The notes under the pieces are model-generated. The model saw nothing but the letters and a program-made list of their open reading frames with translations. It made no database searches and was not told the DNA's origin. Source: Herpetosiphon aurantiacus DSM 785 (GTDB lineage Bacteria; Chloroflexota; Chloroflexia; Chloroflexales; Herpetosiphonaceae). From it: a DNA stretch of 64,000 nt. Below are positions 3,153 through 46,882 of this stretch, piece by piece. Made by a program: the position numbers and the translations under genes. The stretch lies in contig CP000875.1 in NCBI GenBank assembly GCA_000018565.1, positions 5,471,199 to 5,535,198 on the forward strand, written 5' to 3'. Position 1 is the first letter of the stretch, and every line of letters starts with the position of its first letter.

Positions 3153-3962
3153 TTAGGTAGTAGCAATACTGGCTGATTCCAGCTTACTGAAATACTGCTT
3201 GAAGAACGGTAATAAATCCGCTCCATCAATCATATGGCCTTTTCCGGCTAACTGATCAAAGGTCGCATTAGGGATTGCTTCGGCTAATGCTTGGCCGACC
3301 TTGCGAATACCAGCTGGGCTTTTTGCTCCAACCAGCACATGGATTGGCACGCTGCACTGCGTTGCCCGCTCAAGCGAGGGCAAATCGGCAGTTAATTCAA
3401 GATCATAGGCCAGTGTCGGGGCAAGTTTAACCATGGTTTTCCAGCCAGGCATAAGCCGCATCAGCCATGCAAATATTTTAGGCATGCCAATACCACTTAA
3501 AAAGCTGGTGATTGCTTGGGCATGCTGGCCGTTGGCTAGCAACGACTCAATCTGTTTTTGCAATAGCCCATACTCAGCCTGTTCAGTTGAATCGTGAACA
3601 TAGGCCGGATCATACAACATCACATGATCAACACACTGGGGAAACTGCAATGCCGCTTCAAGTGCCAAGACAGCCCCCGACGAATGACCGTAGATATGCG
3701 CTTTTCCACCAGCCCGCTCGATCAGTGCCAACAAATCCTCAAGTTCGCGGAGCGGCGTATACGGCTGGATATCGCTGCTATCACCACGGCCTCGGCGATC
3801 GTAATTATAAACAGTAAATGCTTGGGCTAGGGCTTTGGCATCTTTGACAATTGGAAAAAACTTGCGAAAACAGATTGCCCCGGTGATATAGATCAACGGC
3901 GGGCCACTGCCATAAACATCATAGGCCAAGGTTGTGCCATCTTGCGAGCGCAATGTCTGCAT
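3153..3962 (-). CDS. Alpha/beta-fold hydrolase
   Basis: A 269-residue cytoplasmic serine hydrolase. Visible features are the oxyanion/HG-like region GSGPPLIYITGA, the nucleophile elbow GHSSG (about residue 94), the strand YDRRGRGDS typical of epoxide-hydrolase/prolyl-aminopeptidase relatives, an acid in LVGAKSP-type context and the catalytic His in AGKGHMIDG near the C-terminus. There is no signal peptide. Start: ATG at 3962 with GGAGG 5-6 nt upstream; an in-frame GTG at 3974 overlaps this ribosome site and is less likely. The substrate cannot be told from sequence; many actinobacterial and Chloroflexota relatives are annotated only as alpha/beta hydrolase. It is monocistronic, with two family-A repeat copies nearby. 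Confidence 0.85.
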   Translation of the reverse strand: MQTLRSQDGTTLAYDVYGSGPPLIYITGAICFRKFFPIVKDAKALAQAFTVYNYDRRGRGDSSDIQPYTPLRELEDLLALIERAGGKAHIYGHSSGAVLALEAALQFPQCVDHVMLYDPAYVHDSTEQAEYGLLQKQIESLLANGQHAQAITSFLSGIGMPKIFAWLMRLMPGWKTMVKLAPTLAYDLELTADLPSLERATQCSVPIHVLVGAKSPAGIRKVGQALAEAIPNATFDQLAGKGHMIDGADLLPFFKQYFSKLESASIATT

Positions 3963-4017: not shown

Positions 4018-4053
4018 ATATGATCTATCTACAAAATATGATCTATCTACAAA
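4018..4053. repeat. Perfect 18-bp tandem duplication upstream of the hydrolase
   Basis: ATATGATCTATCTACAAA occurs twice head to tail, 56 bp upstream of the hydrolase ATG on its promoter side. This could be a duplicated operator (GATCTATC core) for that gene or chance slippage. No other copy was noticed in the window. Confidence 0.75.
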
Positions 4054-4080
4054 AGCGGTATAATTCGCCGTCGATTGGTA

Positions 4081-4180
4081 TGCCCTCACCCCCTAGACCC
4101 GCTCCCGCACACGAGGCGAGGGGAACCACAAAACGAAAAGCCCCTCGCCCACTACGTCGGGCGAGGGGTTGGGGTGAGCG
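4081..4180. repeat. C-rich palindromic repeat (family A, copy 2)
   Basis: About 100 bp with outer arms CCCTCACCCC / GGGGTGAG and inner CGAGGCGAGGGG / CCCCTCGCC-type arms. It matches the copy at 1992-2100 in layout but has diverged in the centre. It sits just past the pncA stop (4192, minus strand), so its stem may serve as the 3' end of the NAD operon transcript. Confidence 0.75.
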
Positions 4181-4191
4181 AACTTAAAATC

Positions 4192-4893
4192 CTATTTCAG
4201 TGCTTTGACCACTTCCACGCCGTTGGCGGCCATGTGGTGCAATGAAAAAACATGGTGGAAATCGCCAGGATGGGCATATAGGCCAAGTTCGCGGGCCACT
4301 TCTAGCGGCGTATCGTAGGTATCGACGCATTGCGCGGGCAACACGACGCGGCGTTGCACATTCCGAGCATTGGCATCAAGCCGCAAGAACATGGCCAATT
4401 GATACACACAGAGATCCGAGCAATCGCCAGTGATGATGTAGGTATCAACTTCGGGATGCTCAGCCACCCACGCCGGAAAACCCGTGCTCAAAGCAGCGCT
4501 CAACGAGTTCTTTTCAAAAATCGTGAAGCTATCGGCAAAGGGCAAAGCACGTAATTCTGGCGCAGTATCAGCCTCGGACGTGCCACGGACACAGTGGACT
4601 GGAAACGCACCAAACTCAACAGCATCAACAGGATGCGAATCTTGGGGCAGGATGAAATGGCGCACACCACCAGCATGAGCAGTTTTGAACAATTCGGCAA
4701 TCGGCGCGACGATGCTTTGCACCCGTGGGCTAGCCAAAGCCCCATCGGTACAAAACCCGACAATAATATCAACACAGGTCACCGCCACCCGCTCAGCCCC
4801 ATCGATCAATAAATCGTCGAGTGGCAATTCGGGCAAGTTGGCATACCAATCATCCAAATATTCCAAAAATGCTTGGCTATTGTTCGCGAGCAT
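4192..4893 (-). CDS. pncA: Nicotinamidase (isochorismatase-like hydrolase)
   Basis: Hydrolyses nicotinamide to nicotinate for NAD salvage. The 233-residue product keeps the family triad: Asp in VDIIVGFCTDG, Lys in FEKNSL and the nucleophile Cys in GDCSDLCV. It also keeps the metal-site region DSHPVDAVEFGAFPVHCVRGT in two overlapping pieces (DSHPVDAVEF and AFPVHCVRGT), the latter typical of nicotinamidases rather than other isochorismatase-like enzymes. Start: ATG 4893 with AAAGGAG 5 nt upstream; the longer frame would translate the repeat tract upstream. It is the last gene of the nrtR-nadE-pncA operon, 126 bp after nadE, which supports the role. The length is usual for the family. Confidence 0.88.
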   Translation of the reverse strand: MLANNSQAFLEYLDDWYANLPELPLDDLLIDGAERVAVTCVDIIVGFCTDGALASPRVQSIVAPIAELFKTAHAGGVRHFILPQDSHPVDAVEFGAFPVHCVRGTSEADTAPELRALPFADSFTIFEKNSLSAALSTGFPAWVAEHPEVDTYIITGDCSDLCVYQLAMFLRLDANARNVQRRVVLPAQCVDTYDTPLEVARELGLYAHPGDFHHVFSLHHMAANGVEVVKALK

Positions 4894-4948
4894 AAAAACT
4901 CCTTTGAAAGTCAAAAGGCAGAAATCAAAAGGCAAAAAACACCACCGA

Positions 4949-5020
4949 TTCTGACTTCTGACTTCTGACTTCTGACTTCTGACTTCTGACTTCTGACTTC
5001 TGACTTCTGACTTCTGACTT
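4949..5020. repeat. Heptamer tandem repeat, ten TTCTGAC units (STRR-like), nadE-pncA gap
   Basis: Ten perfect TTCTGAC units plus TT run up to the first base of the nadE stop codon (5020-5022). Between the tract and the pncA ribosome site (4899-4905) lies the pyrimidine/purine mirror AAAGTCAAAAGGCAGAAATC, so the operon mRNA can pair GTCAGAA units with TTCTGCCTTTTGACTT. The layout resembles the short tandemly repeated repetitive heptamers known from filamentous cyanobacteria. Confidence 0.9.
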
Positions 5021-6888
5021 TAATAATCGACTGGCCGCAAGTAGTATTTGCCGATGGCGGTGCTTGAGAGCATGGCAGTGCTGGGCAAATGGCGTTTCCA
5101 GTGAGTCGAATTGACCCGCCGCTGAACAATCGCTACTTCATCGGGATTGAAGCCACGCGCAACCAATTGCTCAGGTCGATAACCGCTCAACAAATAGGCC
5201 AGCACTCGATCAGCCTTGCGATACGAGATGCCAAAATCATCTTCATCGGTTTGACCAACCACCAAATCAGCCGAAGCTGGCTTATGCACAATCACATCAG
5301 GTACGCCAATCGCCGAAGCCAATTCCCAAACTTGGGTCTTGAACAAGTCGCCCAAAGGATTGACTGGCGGAGCATCATCGGCATGCCACGTGTAATAGCC
5401 AAATAAACGCTCGGTTTTGTTGCCAGTGCCAATCGGAATACACCCGAGCTTTTGCGATTGATCAAACAACACAATCATCCGGGTGCGAGCCATCACATTG
5501 CCCCGCCGTCGGCCATCAGCATCTGGCTCAAAGCTCAAATAGCCTTCAACCGCATTAGTAATTTCGATCGTGCGATGCTGAATGCCTAGATCGTCGATCA
5601 CCAACTGGGCGTGGTCTAAACTATCCGACGATGAAGTGCGATAGGGCATGCGCACGGCGAGCACATTTTCAGCGCCAAAAGCCTTAGCACACAAATAGGT
5701 GGTTAAGGCCGAATCAACCCCGCCCGAAAGCCCAATCACAACTTGTTTAAAGCCACGCCGAAAGCCAACTTCATCGCGCAAAAACTCGACCAACCAATTA
5801 ATCGTCAATTCAGGATTGATCCGCAGTGGCTCGTCGCTCTCGGGATCAAAACGTGGTGCAGCAATAATTGGAAAGCTTTGATTGCCAACTGTGGCTTTGG
5901 CGCGTTTTTCGCCTTCGCTATCGACGGTACGTTGATACGAACTGGCATCGTTGAGGCCTTGCGAATCGCTGGAAAGCGCCGTATCCCACGTGCTTGGGCG
6001 ATGTTGGCCCTCGCTGGCAGCATGCACATCGCGCAACATAAAGGGCAAGCGTTCTTCCAAATCAGCCAATAATGGCAAATCAGCACGGGCCAAAGTCAAA
6101 TCGCTGAGATCAATATCGACCAAGATTACTGCTTCCGACCACAACGGAGCGCGAGCGCGTTCATCGGAGCGGGGACCAACCACGACTGAACCACCAGCAA
6201 AACCCTTGCCACCTTCAAAGCCGACAATTTGGCAAACCGCCAGATAGACCCCATGTTCGCCAGCAATTTCACGAATCCGGTCATCCCAACGGGCGAGATT
6301 GCTCGGACGATCTTCGTTGGCTCCACGGGCAGGCGAAGCACTGACGACGTAGAGCATCTGCGCCCCATCAAGCGCCGCGACCGTACCGCTCAGCGAGTGC
6401 CATGCATCCTCGCAAATCAAGATTGCCACCCGCCCAAAACGGGTATCGAAGGCCGCAATTTGGCGGCCAGCCTCAACAAAACGCGCTTCATCAAACACGC
6501 CGTAGGTTGGCAAAAACATCTTACGATGCACATGGCGAATGCCGGCCAAGCTCTGATCGCTGCCAATCGTGGCATACAGAGCGCTATTGTAAAAACGTTC
6601 GCGCCAACGTTCGTAAAAGCCAATCACAATATCGAGGGCTGGTGCATCAGCGCCGCGTGCCGCCACATAGGTTTGTTGCAAATCGTGAAACAATTGACCT
6701 GCGGTAACTGCCTGCTCACGCACGCCGCCCTCAAGGAAATAGCCAGTTAAGGCGGTTTCAGGCAACATCAGCACATCGGGCTGACGTTCGGTTGTGCCAA
6801 GTTGGGCGAAAATTTCGCCAAGCCGCGCCAAATTGGCGGCATAATGCCCTTTGCGCGGGCGAAATTGGGCTAAAGCTAAAGTGTACAT
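5020..6888 (-). CDS. nadE: Glutamine-dependent NAD+ synthetase
   Basis: Last step of NAD synthesis: ATP-dependent amidation of nicotinate adenine dinucleotide using glutamine. The 622-residue protein has an N-terminal carbon-nitrogen hydrolase (glutaminase) domain, residues about 1-280, with its Glu (LPETALTGYF), Lys (VHRKMFLPTYGVF) and nucleophile Cys (ILICEDAWHS). The C-terminal synthetase domain, about 320-600, has the PP-loop VIGLSGGVDSALT and GTGNKTERLFGYYT. Start: ATG 6888 with a GGGGG-rich ribosome site; the longer frame from 6930 uses a TTG inside repeat DNA. It sits between nrtR and pncA in one operon. The middle part (about 290-320) is a loosely conserved linker. Confidence 0.95.
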   Translation of the reverse strand: MYTLALAQFRPRKGHYAANLARLGEIFAQLGTTERQPDVLMLPETALTGYFLEGGVREQAVTAGQLFHDLQQTYVAARGADAPALDIVIGFYERWRERFYNSALYATIGSDQSLAGIRHVHRKMFLPTYGVFDEARFVEAGRQIAAFDTRFGRVAILICEDAWHSLSGTVAALDGAQMLYVVSASPARGANEDRPSNLARWDDRIREIAGEHGVYLAVCQIVGFEGGKGFAGGSVVVGPRSDERARAPLWSEAVILVDIDLSDLTLARADLPLLADLEERLPFMLRDVHAASEGQHRPSTWDTALSSDSQGLNDASSYQRTVDSEGEKRAKATVGNQSFPIIAAPRFDPESDEPLRINPELTINWLVEFLRDEVGFRRGFKQVVIGLSGGVDSALTTYLCAKAFGAENVLAVRMPYRTSSSDSLDHAQLVIDDLGIQHRTIEITNAVEGYLSFEPDADGRRRGNVMARTRMIVLFDQSQKLGCIPIGTGNKTERLFGYYTWHADDAPPVNPLGDLFKTQVWELASAIGVPDVIVHKPASADLVVGQTDEDDFGISYRKADRVLAYLLSGYRPEQLVARGFNPDEVAIVQRRVNSTHWKRHLPSTAMLSSTAIGKYYLRPVDY

Positions 6889-6976
6889 AAACACCCCCAG
6901 TAAAGTTAGAAGGCAAAGGGCAAAAGGCAAAATAGCTTATTCCGAGTATTTTGACTTTTGATTTCTGACGTTTGCC
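6889..6976. repeat. STRR-like tract filling the nrtR-nadE gap
   Basis: Degenerate heptamers (GGCAAAG / GGCAAAA on one side, TTTTGAC / TTTCTGAC on the other) run from the nrtR stop codon to the nadE ribosome site. Read on the operon strand the two halves are inverted, with CAAAATA and TATTTTG forming a perfect inner stem at the centre, so an intercistronic hairpin is likely. Confidence 0.75.
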
Positions 6977-7699
6977 TTATTGTTCGTCCTTCTTTTTGGC
7001 TTCGCGGTAGCGAAACACAAAATCGCCCTCGATGCGTGAATCGCGGAAGCGATAGAGGCGAGCTGGTCGGCCTCGGCTATTCAGCAATTTGCCAGTATCT
7101 TCGAGCAAATCGGAATCACGCAGTTTGCGATAGAAATTGGCTTTATCGAGCTGCTCGCCCAATATCTCTTCGTAAATCCGCTTGAGTTTGGGCAAGCTAA
7201 ATTCCTTGGGGAGCAATTGAAAGGCCAAAGTGGTGTATTCCAGCTTTGAGCGCAAGCGATCGATTGCAAAGCGCAGAATCTTTTCATGATCGAAGGCCAA
7301 GTCCTTGGGCAGTTCATCGACCGGAAACCAACAAACATCATTCGATTCGTCGGAAACTTGCAAGGCTTGCTCTTCGGTACGAATTAAGGCAAAATAGGCC
7401 ACACTAATCACGCGGGTTCGTGGGTCGCGCCCAGGATCACCAAAAGTATACAGCTGCTCCATATACACATCGTGAACGCCTGTTTCTTCCTCCAACTCGC
7501 GCCGAGCAGCCATTTCCAACGATTCATCCATGTTGACGAAGCCACCTGGAATCGCCCAATGTTCAGCGTAGGGCCAATGTTTCCGCTGCACCATCAGCAC
7601 ATGCAAACGGCCACTGCGCAAGCCAAATATCACCACATCGACCGTTACAGAAGGCCGCTCATATTTTGTCGCATCGTAATTTTCAGCAGTTTCTGTCAT
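6977..7699 (-). CDS. nrtR: NrtR-type Nudix transcriptional regulator of NAD metabolism
   Basis: NrtR proteins join an ADP-ribose-binding Nudix domain to a winged helix and repress NAD genes until ADP-ribose signals. The 240-residue product has a Nudix domain at about 15-155 with a complete Nudix box (GGFVNMDESLEM then RRELEEETGV). A C-terminal winged-helix part follows at about 165-230, including TTLAFQLLPKEFSLPKL, FYRKLRDSDLLEDTG and SRGRPARLYRF, as in NrtR/COG4111-type regulators. Because the Nudix box is intact, hydrolase activity may remain. Start: ATG 7699 with AGGAG 6 nt upstream; the track frame to 7759 runs through the promoter. It leads the nadE-pncA operon, which matches the family's known targets. 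Confidence 0.92.
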   Translation of the reverse strand: MTETAENYDATKYERPSVTVDVVIFGLRSGRLHVLMVQRKHWPYAEHWAIPGGFVNMDESLEMAARRELEEETGVHDVYMEQLYTFGDPGRDPRTRVISVAYFALIRTEEQALQVSDESNDVCWFPVDELPKDLAFDHEKILRFAIDRLRSKLEYTTLAFQLLPKEFSLPKLKRIYEEILGEQLDKANFYRKLRDSDLLEDTGKLLNSRGRPARLYRFRDSRIEGDFVFRYREAKKKDEQ

Positions 7700-7713
7700 A
7701 GCTGCTCCTAATA

Positions 7714-7759
7714 GTGTTATTATGACACAAAGTATAAACATGAATTGGGCAGTTGTCAA
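7714..7759 (-). promoter_or_regulatory. nrtR operon promoter with candidate NrtR operator
   Basis: On the minus strand, TTGACA (7754-7759) and TATACT (7731-7736) are separated by exactly 17 nt, an excellent housekeeping promoter. Two bases after the -10 lies GTGTCATAATAACAC (7714-7728), a 15-bp near-perfect palindrome (one mismatched pair) covering the expected transcription start. Its position would block initiation, as expected for NrtR autorepression. The binding itself is inferred. Confidence 0.8.
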
Positions 7760-7945
7760 TAGGGAGTATTGGGGGCAAGAGGTCAGGGAATCAGAATCTC
7801 AGCTTTTTAGCCGCAATTTGTGCCTCGGCGTTAACGTTTGATCCACGAAGGACACGAAGAGCACGAAGAACAAGGGGCTAGATAATTACTTTGTCCAATA
7901 ATGAAGCCTGATCCCTAACCTCTGATCCCTGATCCCTCGCTTTTA
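7760..7945. repeat. Dispersed CTTCGTG-type (family C) and TGATCCC-type (STRR) repeats
   Basis: 7839-7875 holds GATCCACGAAGGACACGAAG-like sequence, the same family as at 19583-19806, 24171-24262 and 26648-26712. 7912-7938 holds TGATCCC heptamers. No ORF or other signal is seen in this stretch between nrtR and the hpf leader. Confidence 0.6.
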
Positions 7946-7964
7946 CAATCGGATGTTGGTTCTA

Positions 7965-8302
7965 TTGCGTTCGCTTCATGGGCATAGTACAATACTGGCA
8001 ACTGCTCCAAGTGAGCTACATGGCCAAATGATCAATTGCAAAAAGGGCGATCATTCAACTTGTAGCTGGCGAATCGATTGGGAACTGCGTTTCAGCACCT
8101 CAGCTTGGCAACACTTGGATCGTGAACGTTTGACGGTAAAATCTCCTCGCCCTTTGGTTTGCAATGGGGCTTTGATGCGGGTTGAGGATTTATGCAAGAT
8201 CGCAGCATCCAATTGAATAACGTTCCACTAGGAGCAGCCTATTGCCAGCTTCTTACCTTGCTTGGGTAGGAAGCTGGCGTGTTTTAGGTTTTTGTAAGGA
8301 GG
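7965..8302 (+). promoter_or_regulatory. Long hpf leader with candidate promoter
   Basis: TTGCGT (7965-7970) and TACAAT (7988-7993), spaced by 17 nt, form a plausible promoter about 310 nt before the hpf start. The leader then runs to a terminator-like hairpin at 8244-8278 and the ribosome site AAGGAGG at 8296-8302. A frame from ATG 8028 to 8216 (62 residues) lies inside but has no ribosome site and no recognisable motif, so it is not called as a gene. A leader RNA or attenuator is possible. Confidence 0.4.
8244..8278 (+). terminator. Terminator-like hairpin in front of hpf
   Basis: GCCAGCTTCTTACC and GGTAGGAAGCTGGC form a 14-bp stem with one mismatch and a 7-nt loop, followed by GTTTTAGGTTTTTG. 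It lies only 30 nt before the hpf GTG and 18 nt before its ribosome site, so it either ends an upstream transcript or attenuates hpf. Confidence 0.65.
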
Positions 8303-8308
8303 CGTACC

Positions 8309-19410: not shown

Positions 19411-19834
19411 TGCAGTTTATCCCTTGTACAATCCATTGTTCATCTCAACGTTGCGTAGTGTACCATGGTTGCTTCGCTTTGCTGCTGATAAAAAGCTGAA
19501 AGATTGACAACCAAAGAACATAGAACATAGAGCATCGAACATAGTAGGGATTGGGGATCGGGGTGCAGGCTATGGGCTATTAGAGCAATAATCAAAATAA
19601 TCTGTGCAATCTGTGGCTAAAAAATTAACCTTCGTGGATCAATCGCTTAACGCAGAGGCGCAGAGAATCAAGGGATGAGGGATGAAATTCCAACAGGATG
19701 AGCATCTGAGGTGTGTGGCATAGAGCAATAATCAAGATAATCTGGGCAATCTGTGGCTAAAAACTTAACCTTCGTGTCCTTTGTGCTCTTCGTGGATCAA
19801 AATAAGGTTCTTTGCGATCTTCGCGGTTTCTAGG
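19411..19834. repeat. Intergenic stretch with two family-C repeat copies
   Basis: No gene is seen. 19583-19634 and 19723-19776 are near-identical (AATCAAxATAATCTGxGCAA then TCTGTGGCTAAAAA and TTAACCTTCGTG), followed in the second copy by TCCTTTGTGCTCTTCGTGG. Between them lies ACGCAGAGGCGCAGAG, which recurs at 49475-49491. STRR-type GGGATTGGGGATCGGGG is at 19547-19563. A minus-strand promoter for the hydrolase gene is not obvious. Confidence 0.65.
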
Positions 19835-24258: not shown

Positions 24259-25323
24259 TTAATCTTTTGGCAATTGCTCAGGTTTGGGGCGTTTTTCATG
24301 TTTTTTACGCAGCACAGCAGTCACTTCCGAGCGATTATGGAACAGTTGACGTGCCCCAATCACCCAATAGGCCGTGCGCAAAATACTCAGCGAGTGATAG
24401 GCGATTTGGGCACTATGTTCATGCGGCAATTTGAGTGTCACCACCGCTAAACCATCGTTGGTCAAGGCATTGGCTGAATCAACCATCAGCCACGCCGAAT
24501 CACGCGCATCGATCCGCATATCATTAACGATCACGGTAAAACGCTCTTGGGTAGGCAAAAAGCGCTGAGCCAAGATTTGCAAATGGCGCACGCCTTGATC
24601 GTAGCGCAAGCTGGGGTGCAAATCGGCTGGGTCGATCGCGACTACTGGCAGGCCTGCTCGCCGCAAAATGCGCGTCCAACCACCAGGCGCAGCCCCTAAA
24701 TCCAAGGCTTGGCCATGGTCGGGCCATTCGATGTTGAATAAGGCTTGGGCTTCGAGCAATTTAAATTCAGCGCGGCTTAATTGGCCTTGTTCGCGGGCAA
24801 AGCGGTGTGCGCCACCCGCCCAAGCCGAGCGATTAAATTCCACGGTCGAAACACCCAAATAAGCCCGATCCATGCTCAGAGCAACCGAAAGCACGCCCTG
24901 CGGATTGCGTACATCCAAGGGTAGCCCGCTGACTTGCGAAACTGCTTCGGCCAAGGCTTGGTTAATTTCAAAGCGGGTTAATTTGACATGTTCATCAAGC
25001 AAGCGAGTTTGCACCGCAAATGGTTTACGGGCTGGCAAATGTGGCGCAAGATTCAAGGCCACTTGGGTTAGGCGTTCTAAATCATCAGGCGTACCTTCGA
25101 GCACGACTTCACGATGAACTGGCGCGATATGGCGCACAAAAATGGCTGGCCGTTTGAGCAAGAAGGCGTGCCATTCAGCGAGTGGTTGCTCTAACTCAAC
25201 CAAGGCCACTTCTGGCGCGAGCCGTTGAACGGCAACCCCATATTTGCCATAACGAATTTCATCTATCGCTGCCTCAAGCATCTCGGGCGCAGCACTAATT
25301 AAAACACGATAGGTATCAAGCAC
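24259..25323 (-). CDS. RlmM/FtsJ-like rRNA 2'-O-methyltransferase with THUMP-type N-terminus
   Basis: A 354-residue S-adenosylmethionine-dependent RNA methyltransferase. The N-terminal half (about 1-170) resembles a THUMP-type RNA-binding region (LLKRPAIFVRHIAPV, PFAVQTRLLDEH). The C-terminal half has the FtsJ SAM motif ALDLGAAPGGWTRILRRAG (about residue 205), the acidic motif DMRID and the catalytic Lys in VVTLKLPHE. This order is that of RlmM (C2498 of 23S rRNA) and its relatives. Start: GTG 25323 with AAAGGAC 8 nt upstream; the longer frame reads repeat DNA. It follows rlmN across a 173-bp repeat-filled gap, so both may be one unit for rRNA modification. Confidence 0.82.
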   Translation of the reverse strand: MLDTYRVLISAAPEMLEAAIDEIRYGKYGVAVQRLAPEVALVELEQPLAEWHAFLLKRPAIFVRHIAPVHREVVLEGTPDDLERLTQVALNLAPHLPARKPFAVQTRLLDEHVKLTRFEINQALAEAVSQVSGLPLDVRNPQGVLSVALSMDRAYLGVSTVEFNRSAWAGGAHRFAREQGQLSRAEFKLLEAQALFNIEWPDHGQALDLGAAPGGWTRILRRAGLPVVAIDPADLHPSLRYDQGVRHLQILAQRFLPTQERFTVIVNDMRIDARDSAWLMVDSANALTNDGLAVVTLKLPHEHSAQIAYHSLSILRTAYWVIGARQLFHNRSEVTAVLRKKHEKRPKPEQLPKD

Positions 25324-25496
25324 AAAAAAGTCCTTTAGAAAGGCAAAAGGCAAAGGGCAAAGGGCAAAAGTTCCTTGATCCAGCCCATTCCATTTAACCT
25401 ACATGCCTTGATACAGTTAATTCCAATCGTTCTGAATCCAGCAATACAGCGGCTTATCAATTAACTATTTTGATTTTTGCCTTCTGAATTCTGACT
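25324..25496. repeat. STRR-like tract filling the rlmN to FtsJ-like gene gap
   Basis: AAAGGCAAAAGGCAAAGGG-type heptamers stand beside the ribosome site of the downstream gene, and TTTTTGCCTTCTGAATTCTG with GACTT runs into the rlmN stop (25497-25499). On the operon strand AGAAGGCAAAA and TTTTGCCTTTCT can pair. The 90 bp between shows no signal. Confidence 0.7.
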
Positions 25497-26588
25497 TTAA
25501 TACAGGTTTATCGGGCTGGTTGGCGATGGAATCGCGGCAAGTTGGCCACAGGCGGCGGCGATTTCAACCCCGCGCTCCACTCGCACGGTGCACGAAATGC
25601 CTGCTGCTTGCACGACTCGTTGAAAAGCCGTAACCCGCTCACGATGCGAACGCGTCAAGGGCGTTCCAGGGATAGGATTCCACGGAATTAAATTGACATG
25701 GCAGAGCATGCCCTTTACCAAACTGGCAAGTTGGGCGGCAAGCTCAGGCGTGTCGTTTTTATCATCGAGCAGCACATATTCAAATGAAACCCGCCGATGG
25801 GTTTTATCGGTGTAATAACGAATCGCATCCATCAAATCGCTGATATCAAAGCGATCGTTGACGGGCATGAGTTCGCTGCGCAATTGATCGTTGGGAGCAT
25901 GCAACGAAACCGCCAAATTGACCTGTAAGGCTTCATCGGCCAATTGGCGAATACCTTTGACCAAGCCCACGGTTGAAACGGTCATGTTGCGAGCGCCAAG
26001 ATTAAAGCCCTGTTTATCATTGAGCCGTTCGACCGCCGCCCACCAACGCTCGTAGTTGGCAAATGGTTCGCCCATGCCCATAAACACCAAGTTGGTGATA
26101 TGGTCGGGCACTGGCCCGCCGTGGCGTTTGGCAATCGCAGCACCTTCATTGCGCAGATAGCGCTCGAAATACAACACCTGCTCCATAATCTCGCCGCTGG
26201 AGATATTGCGCAACAAGCCTAATTTGCCAGTTGCACAAAAGACGCAACCCATGGCACAACCCGCTTGGGTCGAAACGCAAATCGTCGCCCGATCTGGCGG
26301 GTAGATCATCAGCACAGTTTCAATCACCGCATCGCCTGGGCAGCGCCACAGCACTTTGCGGGTTAAGCCATCGTCGGTGGTTTGTTCGCGCACCAATTCA
26401 AGGCTGCCAATCTGCAAATTCGCTGTCAATTGCTCACGCAGTGCGGCGGGCAAATCGGTCATGGCGGCAAAATCGTTAGCTAATTTTTTATATAAATGGG
26501 CATAAATTTGCCGCGCCCGAAAGGCTGGTTGGCCTAATTCGGTCAATTGCGCGGTCAAGCCCTTCAAATCAAGATCGTAAATATTCAT
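25497..26588 (-). CDS. rlmN: Dual-specificity 23S rRNA/tRNA C2-methyladenosine methyltransferase
   Basis: Radical-SAM enzyme that methylates C2 of A2503 in 23S rRNA and A37 in some tRNAs. The 363-residue product has the cluster motif C-x3-C-x2-C ([12 protein letters not shown]), the GEI segment [34 protein letters not shown] and [12 protein letters not shown]. It ends with the second catalytic Cys in AACGQL. Start: ATG 26588 with GAGGAAC; the frame to 26621 adds 11 residues without a ribosome site. The length is normal. It appears to lead a unit with the FtsJ-like methyltransferase. Identification is secure; Cfr is less likely because of the housekeeping context. Confidence 0.94.
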
Positions 26589-27007
26589 GGGTTCCTCGTT
26601 TGTTACGCCCCATGATACCATCTTTCTTTATCGTGGGGATCGGTCGTTGATCCACGAAGGACGCGAAGGGCACGAAGGTTAAGTTTTTAGCCACAGATTA
26701 CACAGATTGTTTTAATTATGCTGCTCGACCCAGCTCATTTCTGTTTCGTTATTGCGTTTCCTGGTGTCTGATACCAGATCCCTTGCCTATGTTATTTACT
26801 CTAATCCCCATTTTGATTTTTGCCTTTTGACTTCTGATTTTATTACCGATCCCCGATTCCCACTGCATATCGTATAATAGCGCCACGCCTCATTTAACAA
26901 TATTTCCCCATCTTGAAGCCTACGGCAGCCTGCTGGATGGAGCTTTCTTGGGCATGGCCAGCATTTGCCGGGCGTGCATTGTTGGCTTGATTCAAAGGAG
27001 TTGACCT
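26589..27007. other. Intergenic region upstream of the purine permease
   Basis: No gene. 26648-26712 is a family-C repeat in inverted orientation to the copy at 19723-19806 (GATCCACGAAGGACGCGAAG then GTTAAGTTTTTAGCCACAGA). 26811-26842 is an STRR-type tract (TTTTGATTTTTGCCTTTTGA). A TATAAT -10 at 26873-26878 would start the permease transcript about 130 nt before its GTG. No purine-riboswitch core was recognised in that leader. Confidence 0.5.
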
Positions 27008-46523: not shown

Positions 46524-46882
46524 TGGTGGAGATGGCGGGAATCGAACCCGCGTCCAAAAAGTTAAACCGCAAGCATCTACAAGCGTAGTCTATTGATTAA
46601 ATCTTATCGGTGCACCACCCGATAGACAAAGCGGGCCACGACCAGCCTGTTAATCTTAGCCCCTAGCCCACAGACATAACTAGGGGAGCGACCCGACTAA
46701 GTGTCGCCGCTACAAGCCCATCGGGCTGAGGCTAGTAGAGACGTGTTGCCTTAATTAGGCAGCAAGCGCTACAGGAGCGCGGAAAGTGTTTTTGCCAGTT
46801 AATGGCGTTGCCGATTTAACGAGGCTCAGCGTCTCGGCTTGCCACTTACGATTGGCCCTCCCTGTCGAAACCAAGCATCCCC
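46524..46882 (-). ncRNA. ssrA: Transfer-messenger RNA (tmRNA)
   Basis: Rescues stalled ribosomes and tags their products for proteolysis together with SmpB. The 359-nt gene begins GGGGATGCTTGGTTTCGACA and ends with a T-arm (GGTTCGATTCCCGCC) and CATCTCC plus an encoded ACCA; the first seven bases pair with CATCTCC. The reading frame resumes at GCA (46811-46809) and gives ATPLTGKNTFRAPVALAA then TAA (46757-46755). The ALAA end matches known tags. Pseudoknot regions are seen as GC-rich stems in 46600-46750. A TATAAT -10 lies at 46915-46920, and a hairpin terminator follows. One-piece form, not permuted. Confidence 0.96.
46755..46811 (-). other. tmRNA tag reading frame
   Basis: Eighteen codons from resume codon GCA to TAA encode ATPLTGKNTFRAPVALAA. 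The sequence before it (GUUAAAUCG) has the A/U-rich pattern expected upstream of the resume codon. The C-terminal ALAA is the part recognised by ClpXP-type proteases in other bacteria. Confidence 0.85.

Follow-up and report, generated by a model that had tools for sequence, protein, structure and literature searches.

In the 64,000-nucleotide stretch of Herpetosiphon aurantiacus DNA analysed here (the window), the gaps between nrtR and nadE, nadE and a pncA-like gene, and rlmN and an FtsJ-like gene contain tandem heptamers. The locus raises the question of whether these tracts act in RNA, as hairpins of an operon transcript, or arise at the level of DNA.

Heptamer tracts in three intercistronic gaps

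Purine-type heptamers followed by pyrimidine-type heptamers were seen on the operon strand in all three gaps, as the sequence-only reading had described (Table 1). The nadE-pncA gap consists of TAA, one A, ten GTCAGAA units, an 11-nt spacer, the pyrimidine-type arm, TTTC and AAAGGAG. In nrtR-nadE, GGCAAAC GTCAGAA ATCAAAA GTCAAAA is located directly 3' of TAA and the second arm reads TTTTGCC TTTTGCC CTTTGCC, while the rlmN-FtsJ gap comprises TAA, one A, four units, a unique core and TTTTGCC-type units reaching CTAAAGGAC. The proposed extent of the tracts, from stop codon to Shine-Dalgarno sequence, holds at the stop codon of all three gaps; at the other end of nrtR-nadE no clear Shine-Dalgarno sequence was read after the second arm. 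Tandem Repeats Finder reported repeats at 4949-5020 (10.3 copies) and at 25339-25370 (4.6 copies). In the whole genome, the exact triplet TTCTGACTTCTGACTTCTGAC occurs only in the nadE-pncA tract (8 overlapping matches); degenerate family-1 triplets gave 178 + 165 matches, overlapping ones counted, and the same pattern read backwards gave none. The only Rfam match at gathering scores in the 64-kb window was tmRNA.

Table 1. Genes, gaps and heptamer tracts in the window.
Feature	Position	Strand	Basis
NrtR gene	6977-7699	minus	Pfam
NadE gene	5020-6888	minus	Pfam; start picked by hand (own ORF caller, 6894)
Isochorismatase-family (pncA-like) gene	4192-4893	minus	Pfam
RlmN gene	25497-26588	minus	Pfam
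FtsJ/THUMP gene	24259-25323	minus	Pfam
nadE-pncA-like intercistronic gap, family-1 heptamers throughout	4894-5019	minus	sequence reading, tract map
nadE-pncA stop-proximal arm, (GTCAGAA)10 on operon strand	4949-5018	minus	tract map
nadE-pncA start-proximal arm, TTTTGCC TTTTGAT TTCTGCC TTTTGAC on operon strand	4910-4937	minus	tract map
nrtR-nadE gap, family 1	6889-6976	minus	sequence reading
nrtR-nadE stop-proximal arm, 3 strict units	6949-6969	minus	tract map
nrtR-nadE start-proximal arm, 3 strict units	6912-6932	minus	tract map
rlmN-FtsJ-like gap, family-1 arms flanking 98-nt core	25324-25496	minus	sequence reading, tract map
rlmN-FtsJ start-proximal arm, 4 strict units	25342-25369	minus	tract map
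rlmN-FtsJ stop-proximal arm, 4 units, 1 imperfect	25468-25495	minus	25468-25481 by script (2 strict), rest by eye
Divergent gap upstream of rlmN, same purine-then-pyrimidine layout	26589-27007		tract map
rlmN upstream gap, CACGAAGGN tract	26653-26679		tract map
rlmN upstream gap, CCACAGATT pair	26691-26708		tract map
rlmN upstream gap, pyrimidine-type family-1 tract	26811-26838		tract map
rlmN upstream gap, pyrimidine-type family-4 tract	26847-26860		tract map
Layered gap	19411-19834		tract map
Layered gap, families 3, 4 and 5, purine orientation	19515-19581		tract map
Layered gap, pyrimidine-type CCACAGATT pair	19599-19616		tract map
Layered gap, purine-type family-2 tract, out of order	19673-19686		tract map
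Divergent gap with CACGAAGGN tract (7844-7870), then pyrimidine-type family-4 tract (7923-7936)	7700-8308		tract map

Polarity, position and the hairpin question

Five heptamer families of period 7 are located in gaps and show inward polarity; their density in coding sequence is 0.012 tracts per kb. Tract densities were obtained from 1.2 Mb of H. aurantiacus 114-95T (G000) and gap statistics from a four-genome set of 2.4 Mb, with gaps of <20 nt or >2000 nt excluded, gene borders taken from our own ORF caller and the longest of overlapping tracts kept. Purine-then-pyrimidine order was found in 93 gaps of the four genomes, one being reversed and three mixed (pooled counts of partly orthologous gaps, which are not independent events). 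By gap type, the ratio was 63:1 in co-directional gaps, which also include the three mixed ones, 9:0 in convergent and 21:0 in divergent gaps; in G000 alone it was 41:1. With ten tract types used, 34 of 511 opposite-orientation pairs violate the polarity; the family patterns were derived from the same data, leaving a single free choice of orientation per family. Purine composition of the gaps was rejected as a cause, since tract-free gaps of at least 90 nt slope slightly the opposite way.

Tract density in G000 does not depend on gap type (1.46 per kb of gap in co-directional, 1.52 in convergent and 1.50 in divergent gaps), so a specificity for operons is not supported. In co-directional gaps the first tract begins no more than 15 nt from the stop codon in 63 of 139 cases, against 30.5 expected, and the arrangement is indeed far more orderly than random insertion. 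The supposed bias to the ribosome site did not appear: in 36/139 co-directional gaps no more than 30 nt separate the end of the last tract from the downstream start (48.9 expected), and divergent gaps have no excess at starts on either the left (1/57, 4.6 expected) or the right side (7/57, 8.6 expected). The operon reading was to fall if tracts were equally frequent in non-operonic gaps and unbiased towards gene borders; on 1.2 Mb the equal density was found, and the bias towards stop codons was nonetheless present. This bias is the only part of the operon and hairpin reading left standing.

RNA folding relative to shuffled sequences gave z-scores of -3.45 for nadE-pncA, +0.10 for nrtR-nadE and -0.22 for rlmN-FtsJ; the predicted intercistronic hairpin thus folds better than chance in the first gap, and the other two fold like shuffles. 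The arms are complementary in type, but a gap's own arms are no better partners than arms of other gaps, permutations with the latter being equal or better in 4895 of 5000 cases for family 1 (20 pairs) and 3153 of 5000 for family 2 (11 pairs), with no arm covariation that keeps pairing. Polarity is also kept in all 21 divergent gaps, where a sense transcript would not span both arms, which speaks against a selected hairpin.

Arms, cores and exchange between congeners

The same outermost family is present in both arms of 22/26 gaps of up to 200 nt and of 20/67 longer gaps, the arms of the other 47 being mismatched; for all two-armed gaps the count is 42/93, compared with 27.2 upon within-genome shuffling. 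The stacking of families is mirror-like: a rule derived from left arms fits 157 of 194 right-arm block pairs (shuffle mean 97.1, maximum 124), with exceptions such as family 2 versus family 4 (6:10). The arms vary independently, unit by unit, and a fold-back origin, in which one arm is the template for its partner, was rejected as the main account because the two do not match at the level of units.

Among 32 simple elements, 28 contain a core of at least 12 nt. Searched in 2.4 Mb, 21 of these cores matched only themselves, four short ones gave no match and three had further matches (two hits for one, 47 and 163 for two long ones); matches of 13-16 nt link four core pairs, one of them orthologous. 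When six whole genomes were searched with three cores (E up to 0.001), each matched the orthologous gap and no other place, which argues against alternative versions of a gap being stored elsewhere. The rlmN-FtsJ core was found at this gap alone, in G000, G001 and G003.

Comparison with five congeners (G001-G005) revealed replacement of one family by another. The nadE-pncA gap carries family 1 in G000 and family 2 in all five congeners; nrtR-nadE carries family 1 in G000 and G001 and family 2 in G002, G003, G004 and G005; rlmN-FtsJ carries family 1 in G000, G001 and G003 and family 2 in G002, G004 and G005. Between G000 and G005 the identity of the rlmN-FtsJ gap is 0.619, while the adjoining 100 nt are identical at 0.98 and 1.00. 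Arms and core were exchanged as one piece, both arms switching family while the flanks stayed undisturbed. Import of long flanking DNA was rejected, the flanks of four exchanged gaps matching like those of 104 others. Of 150 G000-G005 ortholog gap pairs, 128 are tract-free in both genomes and 7 of the 22 tract-bearing pairs retain the same families, one of the 7 being family 1. In the gap upstream of rlmN, the right edge in G005 is formed by pyrimidine-type families 3 and 2 instead; outermost blocks can change while inner blocks persist, an outcome not expected from simple nested insertion at the centre.

We tentatively favor the reading that the tracts are inward-facing end modules of gap-filling units made by a two-ended process at the DNA level. 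Such a unit would be laid out as purine-strand heptamers, core and pyrimidine-strand heptamers between two genes, probably deposited at each end of a break or insert, either by insertion or by break repair with end addition. Neither an enzyme nor a target-site duplication or clean empty site was found for such a process. Its location at stop codons could mainly reflect a lower tolerance of promoter and 5' regions.

A small mobile element, MITE-like, with heptamer arrays as terminal inverted repeats would likewise give fixed polarity, matched ends and exchange of whole units. It would also fit the patchy occurrence of family-1 triplets, found in 23/201 Chloroflexota genomes, with 33+33 in G170, one genome of another family, and none in G073, the sole representative of the nearest other genus in the sample. 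This origin is unlikely, however: most of the 28 cores are unrelated, the three tested are single-copy, and arms vary among copies. No target-site duplication was seen, and the candidate empty sites are not clean insertions. REP/BIME, REPIN, and MITE elements are small dispersed inverted-repeat units in gaps whose copies share sequence, whereas the Herpetosiphon cores mostly do not.

Module size, related repeats and origin

Four units form the peak in families 1 (44/115 tracts), 2 (64/118, with 5 longer) and 3 (44/108), and the preferred module is about 28 bp. Families 4 and 5 lack this peak, with two strict units in 75/87 and 67/87 tracts; the strict unit definition shortens imperfect tracts. 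Identical neighbouring units are fewer in family 2 than in within-tract shuffles (71/282 vs 88.6) and exceed across-tract shuffles in families 1 (63 vs 48.3) and 5 (34 vs 23.0). A single master copy was rejected, exact four-unit sequences being shared only slightly above expectation from unit frequencies, as was a three-frame stop, some families having no stop triplet.

The module size, the bounded unit variants, the stop-codon bias and the closer match of the inner than the outer family-2 unit to the consensus (73/85 vs 47/85) are consistent with a DNA motif array for a putative structural or regulatory protein, selected at gene borders. The swapping of families at one place between congeners and the large share of ortholog gaps free of tracts in both genomes speak against such an array, which we regard as doubtful. 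Selection for a putative binding protein could also keep order and polarity.

Ordinary slippage-born simple repeats drifting in non-coding DNA (STRR, a name also carried by the tandem heptanucleotides of Calothrix) would explain the period of 7, the rarity in coding sequence, the ten perfect GTCAGAA units, which resemble recent slippage, the excess of identical neighbours in families 1 and 5, and the perfect repeats common among modules of other bacteria (84/128 overlapping matches). As the sole cause, slippage was rejected because of the four-unit peak, in place of a falling length curve, and the deficit of identical neighbours in family 2; inward polarity, arm matching in short gaps and mirror order also make this origin improbable.

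It is still less probable that, where a gap is broken or opened, a shared, horizontally scattered bacterial machinery caps the two 3' ends with about 28 nt of heptamers drawn from a few families, with gaps repeatedly lost, refilled and re-capped; the purine strand would then grow inwards, as in a head-to-head fusion of two telomere ends, and the family used would shift with lineage and time. A selected intercistronic RNA hairpin tuning coupling or mRNA processing is very improbable, and such gaps should not be taken for operon regulators.

The module and its polarity recur beyond Herpetosiphon: among the matches listed, a downstream partner was present in 20 of 71 titled stretches and an upstream partner in none, and untitled loci gave 9 and 0, respectively (the count rests on 80 titled loci of at least 119). 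Heptamer repeats are over-represented in many bacteria, with their role left open in the accessible parts of the literature. In the available portions of PMC4692102, the G-rich heptamers GGGAATC (Xanthomonas) and GGGGA(C/T)T (Nostoc), one type per genome, are treated as quadruplex-forming. They are described there as intergenic, preferring four units, overlapping stop codons, closer to the 5'-flanking ORF, in whichever direction this runs, generally without association with mobile elements and tied to stable regions, under-represented between divergent ORFs, and arranged in convergent pairs in Xanthomonas (70 in one genome, 75 in another), with few inverted pairs in Nostoc. The Herpetosiphon heptamers are likewise intergenic, are often found at stop codons, prefer four units in families 1-3 but not in 4 and 5, and occur in convergent pairs with the purine strand directed away from the nearest ORF, the rule of an ORF on the 5' side being equivalent to inward polarity. 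Unlike those repeats, judged by sequence, they lack the G-tracts for quadruplexes: family 3 has no GG and family 1 forms GGG only after units ending in G (32/406 units), yet both peak at four; family 4 does contain G-runs. Further differences from that description are the coexistence of several families stacked in mirror-like order, the swapping of arms and core for another family, and the undiminished density in divergent gaps.

The part of PMC4679880 available describes TAACTGA direct repeats in Beggiatoaceae, Cyanobacteria and Bacteroidetes; in the genome studied there, most are just upstream of start codons, and one indirect repeat is reported. The two systems have in common a single heptamer repeated two to six times in short intergenic arrays and a scattering over distant phyla, whereas Herpetosiphon tracts favor stop codons, without a preference for starts, and often form inverted pairs. 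Tandem heptanucleotides are also reported for the cyanobacterial genome of Calothrix in the accessible text of PMC4692102; those of Herpetosiphon are likened to them by description rather than by sequence. A literature search, with subscription journals mostly outside its coverage, found no description of family exchange or mirror order, and searches with the exact repeat strings returned no papers.

The four-unit peak, polarity, mirror order, exchange and cross-phylum occurrence set the pattern apart from G-quadruplexes, hairpins and plain slippage, and the same rules point to a DNA-level process on two ends. The origin of heptamer repeats thereby becomes testable through close-strain comparison.

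Heptamer families and the gaps that hold them

The genome of Herpetosiphon aurantiacus 114-95T comprises 6,785,430 bases in three contigs, the largest of 6,346,587 bases, the same figures as in its published description (PMC3368417). The window covers positions 5471199-5535198 of contig C1. The genes nadE and rlmN split this genome (G000) and five congeners (G001–G005) into the groups {G000, G003, G005} and {G001, G002, G004}, with nucleotide identities of 86–91% between the groups and 92–97% inside each.

In the gaps nrtR-nadE, nadE-pncA and rlmN-FtsJ-like of the window, heptamer tracts begin directly at the stop codon or one base later and head to the next gene. The sequence-only reading, that such tracts fill these gaps from the stop codon on, is thus borne out, and the orderliness it noted is real. 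Its claim that the tracts end at the next Shine-Dalgarno sequence holds in part: a clear one follows in two of the three gaps, and the third lacks one.

Tracts were surveyed in 2.4 Mb (1.2 Mb of G000 and 0.4 Mb each of G005, G001, and G002), with genes predicted by our own ORF caller. In the first 0.8 Mb, strong tandem segments of period 7 occurred in 29 gaps and of period 14 in 15 gaps, while no other period between 3 and 13 exceeded five gaps. Period-9 tracts (CACGAAGGN and others) co-occur with the five heptamer families (see table). Overlapping degenerate triplets of family 1 (unit RKCARAR) gave 343 matches in G000 and 101 to 481 per congener; family 2 (DKRTGAR) gave 96 and 250 to 779, respectively. 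The patterns reversed gave no match (family 1) and zero or one match per genome (family 2) in the same six genomes.

The supposed preference of tracts for operons was not found: their density per kb of gap in G000 is 1.46 between co-directional (514 gaps), 1.52 between convergent (110), and 1.50 between divergent (131) genes. The four-genome values are 1.72, 1.98, and 1.86, and coding sequence holds 0.012 per kb.

Heptamer families, distribution of families 1 and 2 at three gaps of six Herpetosiphon genomes, and further features of the window
Feature	Position in window	Strand	Description
Family 1			GGCAAAA/GTCAGAA
Family 2			GGATGAA/TTATGAA
Family 3			AGAACAT/AGAGCAT
Family 4			GGGATCA/GGGGTCA
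Family 5			GGCTATN
nadE-pncA gap			family 1: G000 only; family 2: other five genomes
nrtR-nadE gap			family 1: G000, G001; family 2: other four genomes
rlmN-FtsJ gap			family 1: G000, G001, G003; family 2: G002, G004, G005
Tandem 18-bp repeat	4018-4054		ATATGATCTATCTACAAA, 2.1 copies, upstream of gene 3153-3962
GC-rich repeats	4080-4180		CCCTCACCCC...GAGGGG, hairpin-type
tmRNA gene	46524-46882	minus	Rfam RF00023

The G005 gap orthologous to that with the 18-bp repeat contains one diverged copy of it, and at several gaps orthologous between G000 and G005, GC-rich hairpin-type elements are present in one genome and absent in the other.

Polarity, modules and layers

Where gaps of the four genomes contain both orientations, the purine-type tract comes first in 93, the reverse order occurs in one, and three are mixed. 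The ratio of purine-first to reverse order is 63:1 in co-directional gaps, which include all the mixed ones, 9:0 in convergent and 21:0 in divergent gaps; G000 alone gives 41:1. Ten tract types in 1.6 Mb form 477 ordered pairs vs. 34 against polarity, the wider set being less strict, and both same-family reversals between neighbours belong to family 5. The inward polarity is mostly shared by the period-9 tracts (CACGAAGGN, CACGAATTN) and CCACAGATTNCACAGATT, which in gaps of G000, G001, G002, and G005 mostly lie near the centre of layered gaps. In tract-free gaps the purine content shows a weak gradient in the opposite direction (co-directional 0.487 left, 0.516 right). Since the polarity is symmetric about the gap and present between divergent genes, transcription or translation is unlikely to be its cause.

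The first tract of co-directional gaps lies within 15 nt of the stop codon in 63 of 139 cases (expected 30.5; 0 of 5000 simulations as high). In convergent gaps the count is 16 of 41 (expected 9.0; 9 of 5000 simulations), and 23 of 41 have a tract no more than 30 nt from the opposite stop (expected 13.2). Tracts within 30 nt of the start codon were found in 36 of 139 co-directional gaps (expected 48.9), and in divergent gaps in 1 of 57 within 15 nt on the left (expected 4.6) and 7 of 57 within 30 nt on the right (expected 8.6). Tracts therefore hug stop codons without an excess at start codons, so that the proposed bias toward stop and Shine-Dalgarno boundaries stands for the stop side only.

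Four units are the commonest tract size in families 1 (44/115), 2 (64/118), and 3 (44/108), with 17, 5, and 6 tracts, respectively, beyond four; most tracts of families 4 and 5 consist of two strict units. This peak is common to the G-rich heptamers of Xanthomonas and Nostoc, for which the available sections of PMC4692102 describe a four-unit preference, orientation set by the nearest ORF and convergent pairs, report no function found, and suggest a quadruplex as the reason for four units. Unlike those repeats, family 3 lacks a G-run and in family 1 GGG arises only behind units ending in G (32 of 406 units), and therefore the quadruplex explanation does not fit here. Identical adjacent units in family 2 are fewer (71/282) than in within-tract shuffles (88.6; 0 of 2000 as low); the deficit is not clear in family 1 (63 vs. 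64.2) or family 3 (74 vs. 80.5), and families 1 and 5 exceed across-tract unit shuffles. In family 2 the inner unit fits the consensus better (73/85) than the outer (47/85).

The outermost family is the same in both arms of 42 of 93 gaps (expected 27.2 by within-genome shuffling; 1 of 5000 as high), namely 22 of the 26 that measure 200 nt or less and 20 of the 67 longer ones. Unit by unit, the two arms of a gap vary independently: in mean energy per base, an arm forms no better duplex with its own partner than with arms taken from elsewhere (family 1, 20 pairs: -0.887 and -0.989; family 2, 11 pairs: -1.293 and -1.311). Upkeep of the arms thus does not appear to rest on selection for pairing or on fold-back copying. 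These energies do not support an intercistronic hairpin as the role of the tracts, nor does the symmetric arrangement, found also in divergent gaps.

Cores of 32 simple same-family elements measure 3–237 nt. When the 28 of at least 12 nt were compared with the 2.4 Mb, 21 matched only themselves, four had no hit and one had two; two long cores had 47 and 163 hits and, by eye, contain other dispersed repeats.

Longer gaps hold several stacked families. The precedence rule of the left arms explains 157 of 194 right-arm block pairs (shuffle mean 97.1, maximum 124), and that of G000 and G005 explains 208 of 277 pairs in G001 and G002 (mean 138.5, maximum 173), the counts being partly dependent as they include orthologous gaps. 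Mostly, families 1 and 3 lie outside family 4, these families outside the period-9 tract, and the latter outside family 5 and CCACAGATT; the order of family 2 is mixed (20:13 vs. family 1, 20:23 vs. family 3, 6:10 vs. family 4).

Exchange of families between congeners

In other congeners GGATGAA...TTCATCC replaces GTCAGAA/GGCAAAA...TTTTGCC at the three gaps, and the layout of purine arm, core and pyrimidine arm is kept. At nrtR-nadE and rlmN-FtsJ the family distribution crosses the species groups. The rlmN-FtsJ gap of G000 has an identity of 0.875 to that of G001, from the other group, and 0.619 to that of G005, from its own, while the adjoining 100 nt of G000 and G005 are 0.98 (rlmN) and 1.00 (FtsJ-like gene) identical. 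The family-2 gap of G005 has identities of 0.775 and 0.795 to those of G002 or G004.

Of 150 gap pairs orthologous between G000 and G005, 22 have tracts in one or both members, with families the same in seven, partly the same in five, disjoint in six and in one genome only in four. Four of the six disjoint pairs oppose family-1 to family-2 arms, one in a divergent gap; outer blocks differ likewise at three further gaps, and family 1 is kept in both genomes at one. The four exchanged gaps do not stand out by their flanks, whose similarity matches that of the flanks at 104 other gaps.

The 98-nt family-1 core of rlmN-FtsJ has a single match each in G000, G003, and G001, in the orthologous gap. 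Among the six genomes, the G005 family-2 core matches that gap in G005 alone, and the family-2 core of nrtR-nadE has matches in G005 and G003 only. Because these three cores, at E up to 0.001, match only the orthologous gap, none of the six genomes keeps these alternative versions at another site. In G004 (locus L013) the nadE-pncA gap appears to be duplicated in tandem, together with its family-2 arms and a few bases resembling the final nadE codons.

Related repeats and origin of the modules

A scan of genome contigs with a degenerate four-unit family-2 module gave at least 119 stretches, 80 of them titled. Among the titled matches listed, nine are from Herpetosiphon (llansteffanensis, giganteus); the others, mostly MAGs whose taxon labels can be wrong, are labelled Chloroflexota, Cyanobacteria, Acidobacteriota, Planctomycetota, Verrucomicrobiota, Hydrogenedentes, Pseudomonadota, Bacteroidota, and others. 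A pyrimidine-type family-2 partner lies within 300 nt downstream in 20 of the 71 titled non-Herpetosiphon matches listed, including Acidobacteriota, Planctomycetota, Hydrogenedentes, Chloroflexota, and a Betaproteobacterium, and upstream in none; when the distance is widened to 400 nt, one of the 20 (L152) has partners on both sides. For none of the 10 Herpetosiphon tracts among the matches listed does a partner of the same family lie within 300 nt in either direction. Many modules in other bacteria consist of perfect repeats (84 of 128 module matches, overlaps counted, in the 80 titled loci listed), and slippage thus plays a part in them. A naive ORF of at least 150 aa encloses 41 of 127 listed tracts outside titled Herpetosiphon loci.

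Of 201 Chloroflexota genomes, 23 contain family-1 triplets, which are abundant in Herpetosiphon and in G170 of another family (33+33) and absent from G073, sampled from the nearest other genus. Nine stretches of G179, from a further lineage, and three from other genomes carry strict tracts that are two to four units long, each of the 12 stretches in a single orientation. In G179, of a small-genome Chloroflexota lineage, family-1 tracts (L266–L274) stand beside A/T-rich short repeats of the AAAAGTGAAAAGTTAAAA and GATTTATGATTTAAG types, which suggests further families.

TAACTGA repeats 5' of start codons are described from scattered phyla, with translational control suggested, in the available part of PMC4679880, and the terms “intergenic” and “tandem” are absent from the available text on H. 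llansteffanense (PMC6210107). No description of family exchange or mirror order of heptamer families was found in the literature searched. The tracts of Herpetosiphon belong to a class of heptamer modules that come in pairs, face inward and enclose gaps of every type. They most likely arose through a DNA-level process acting on two ends.
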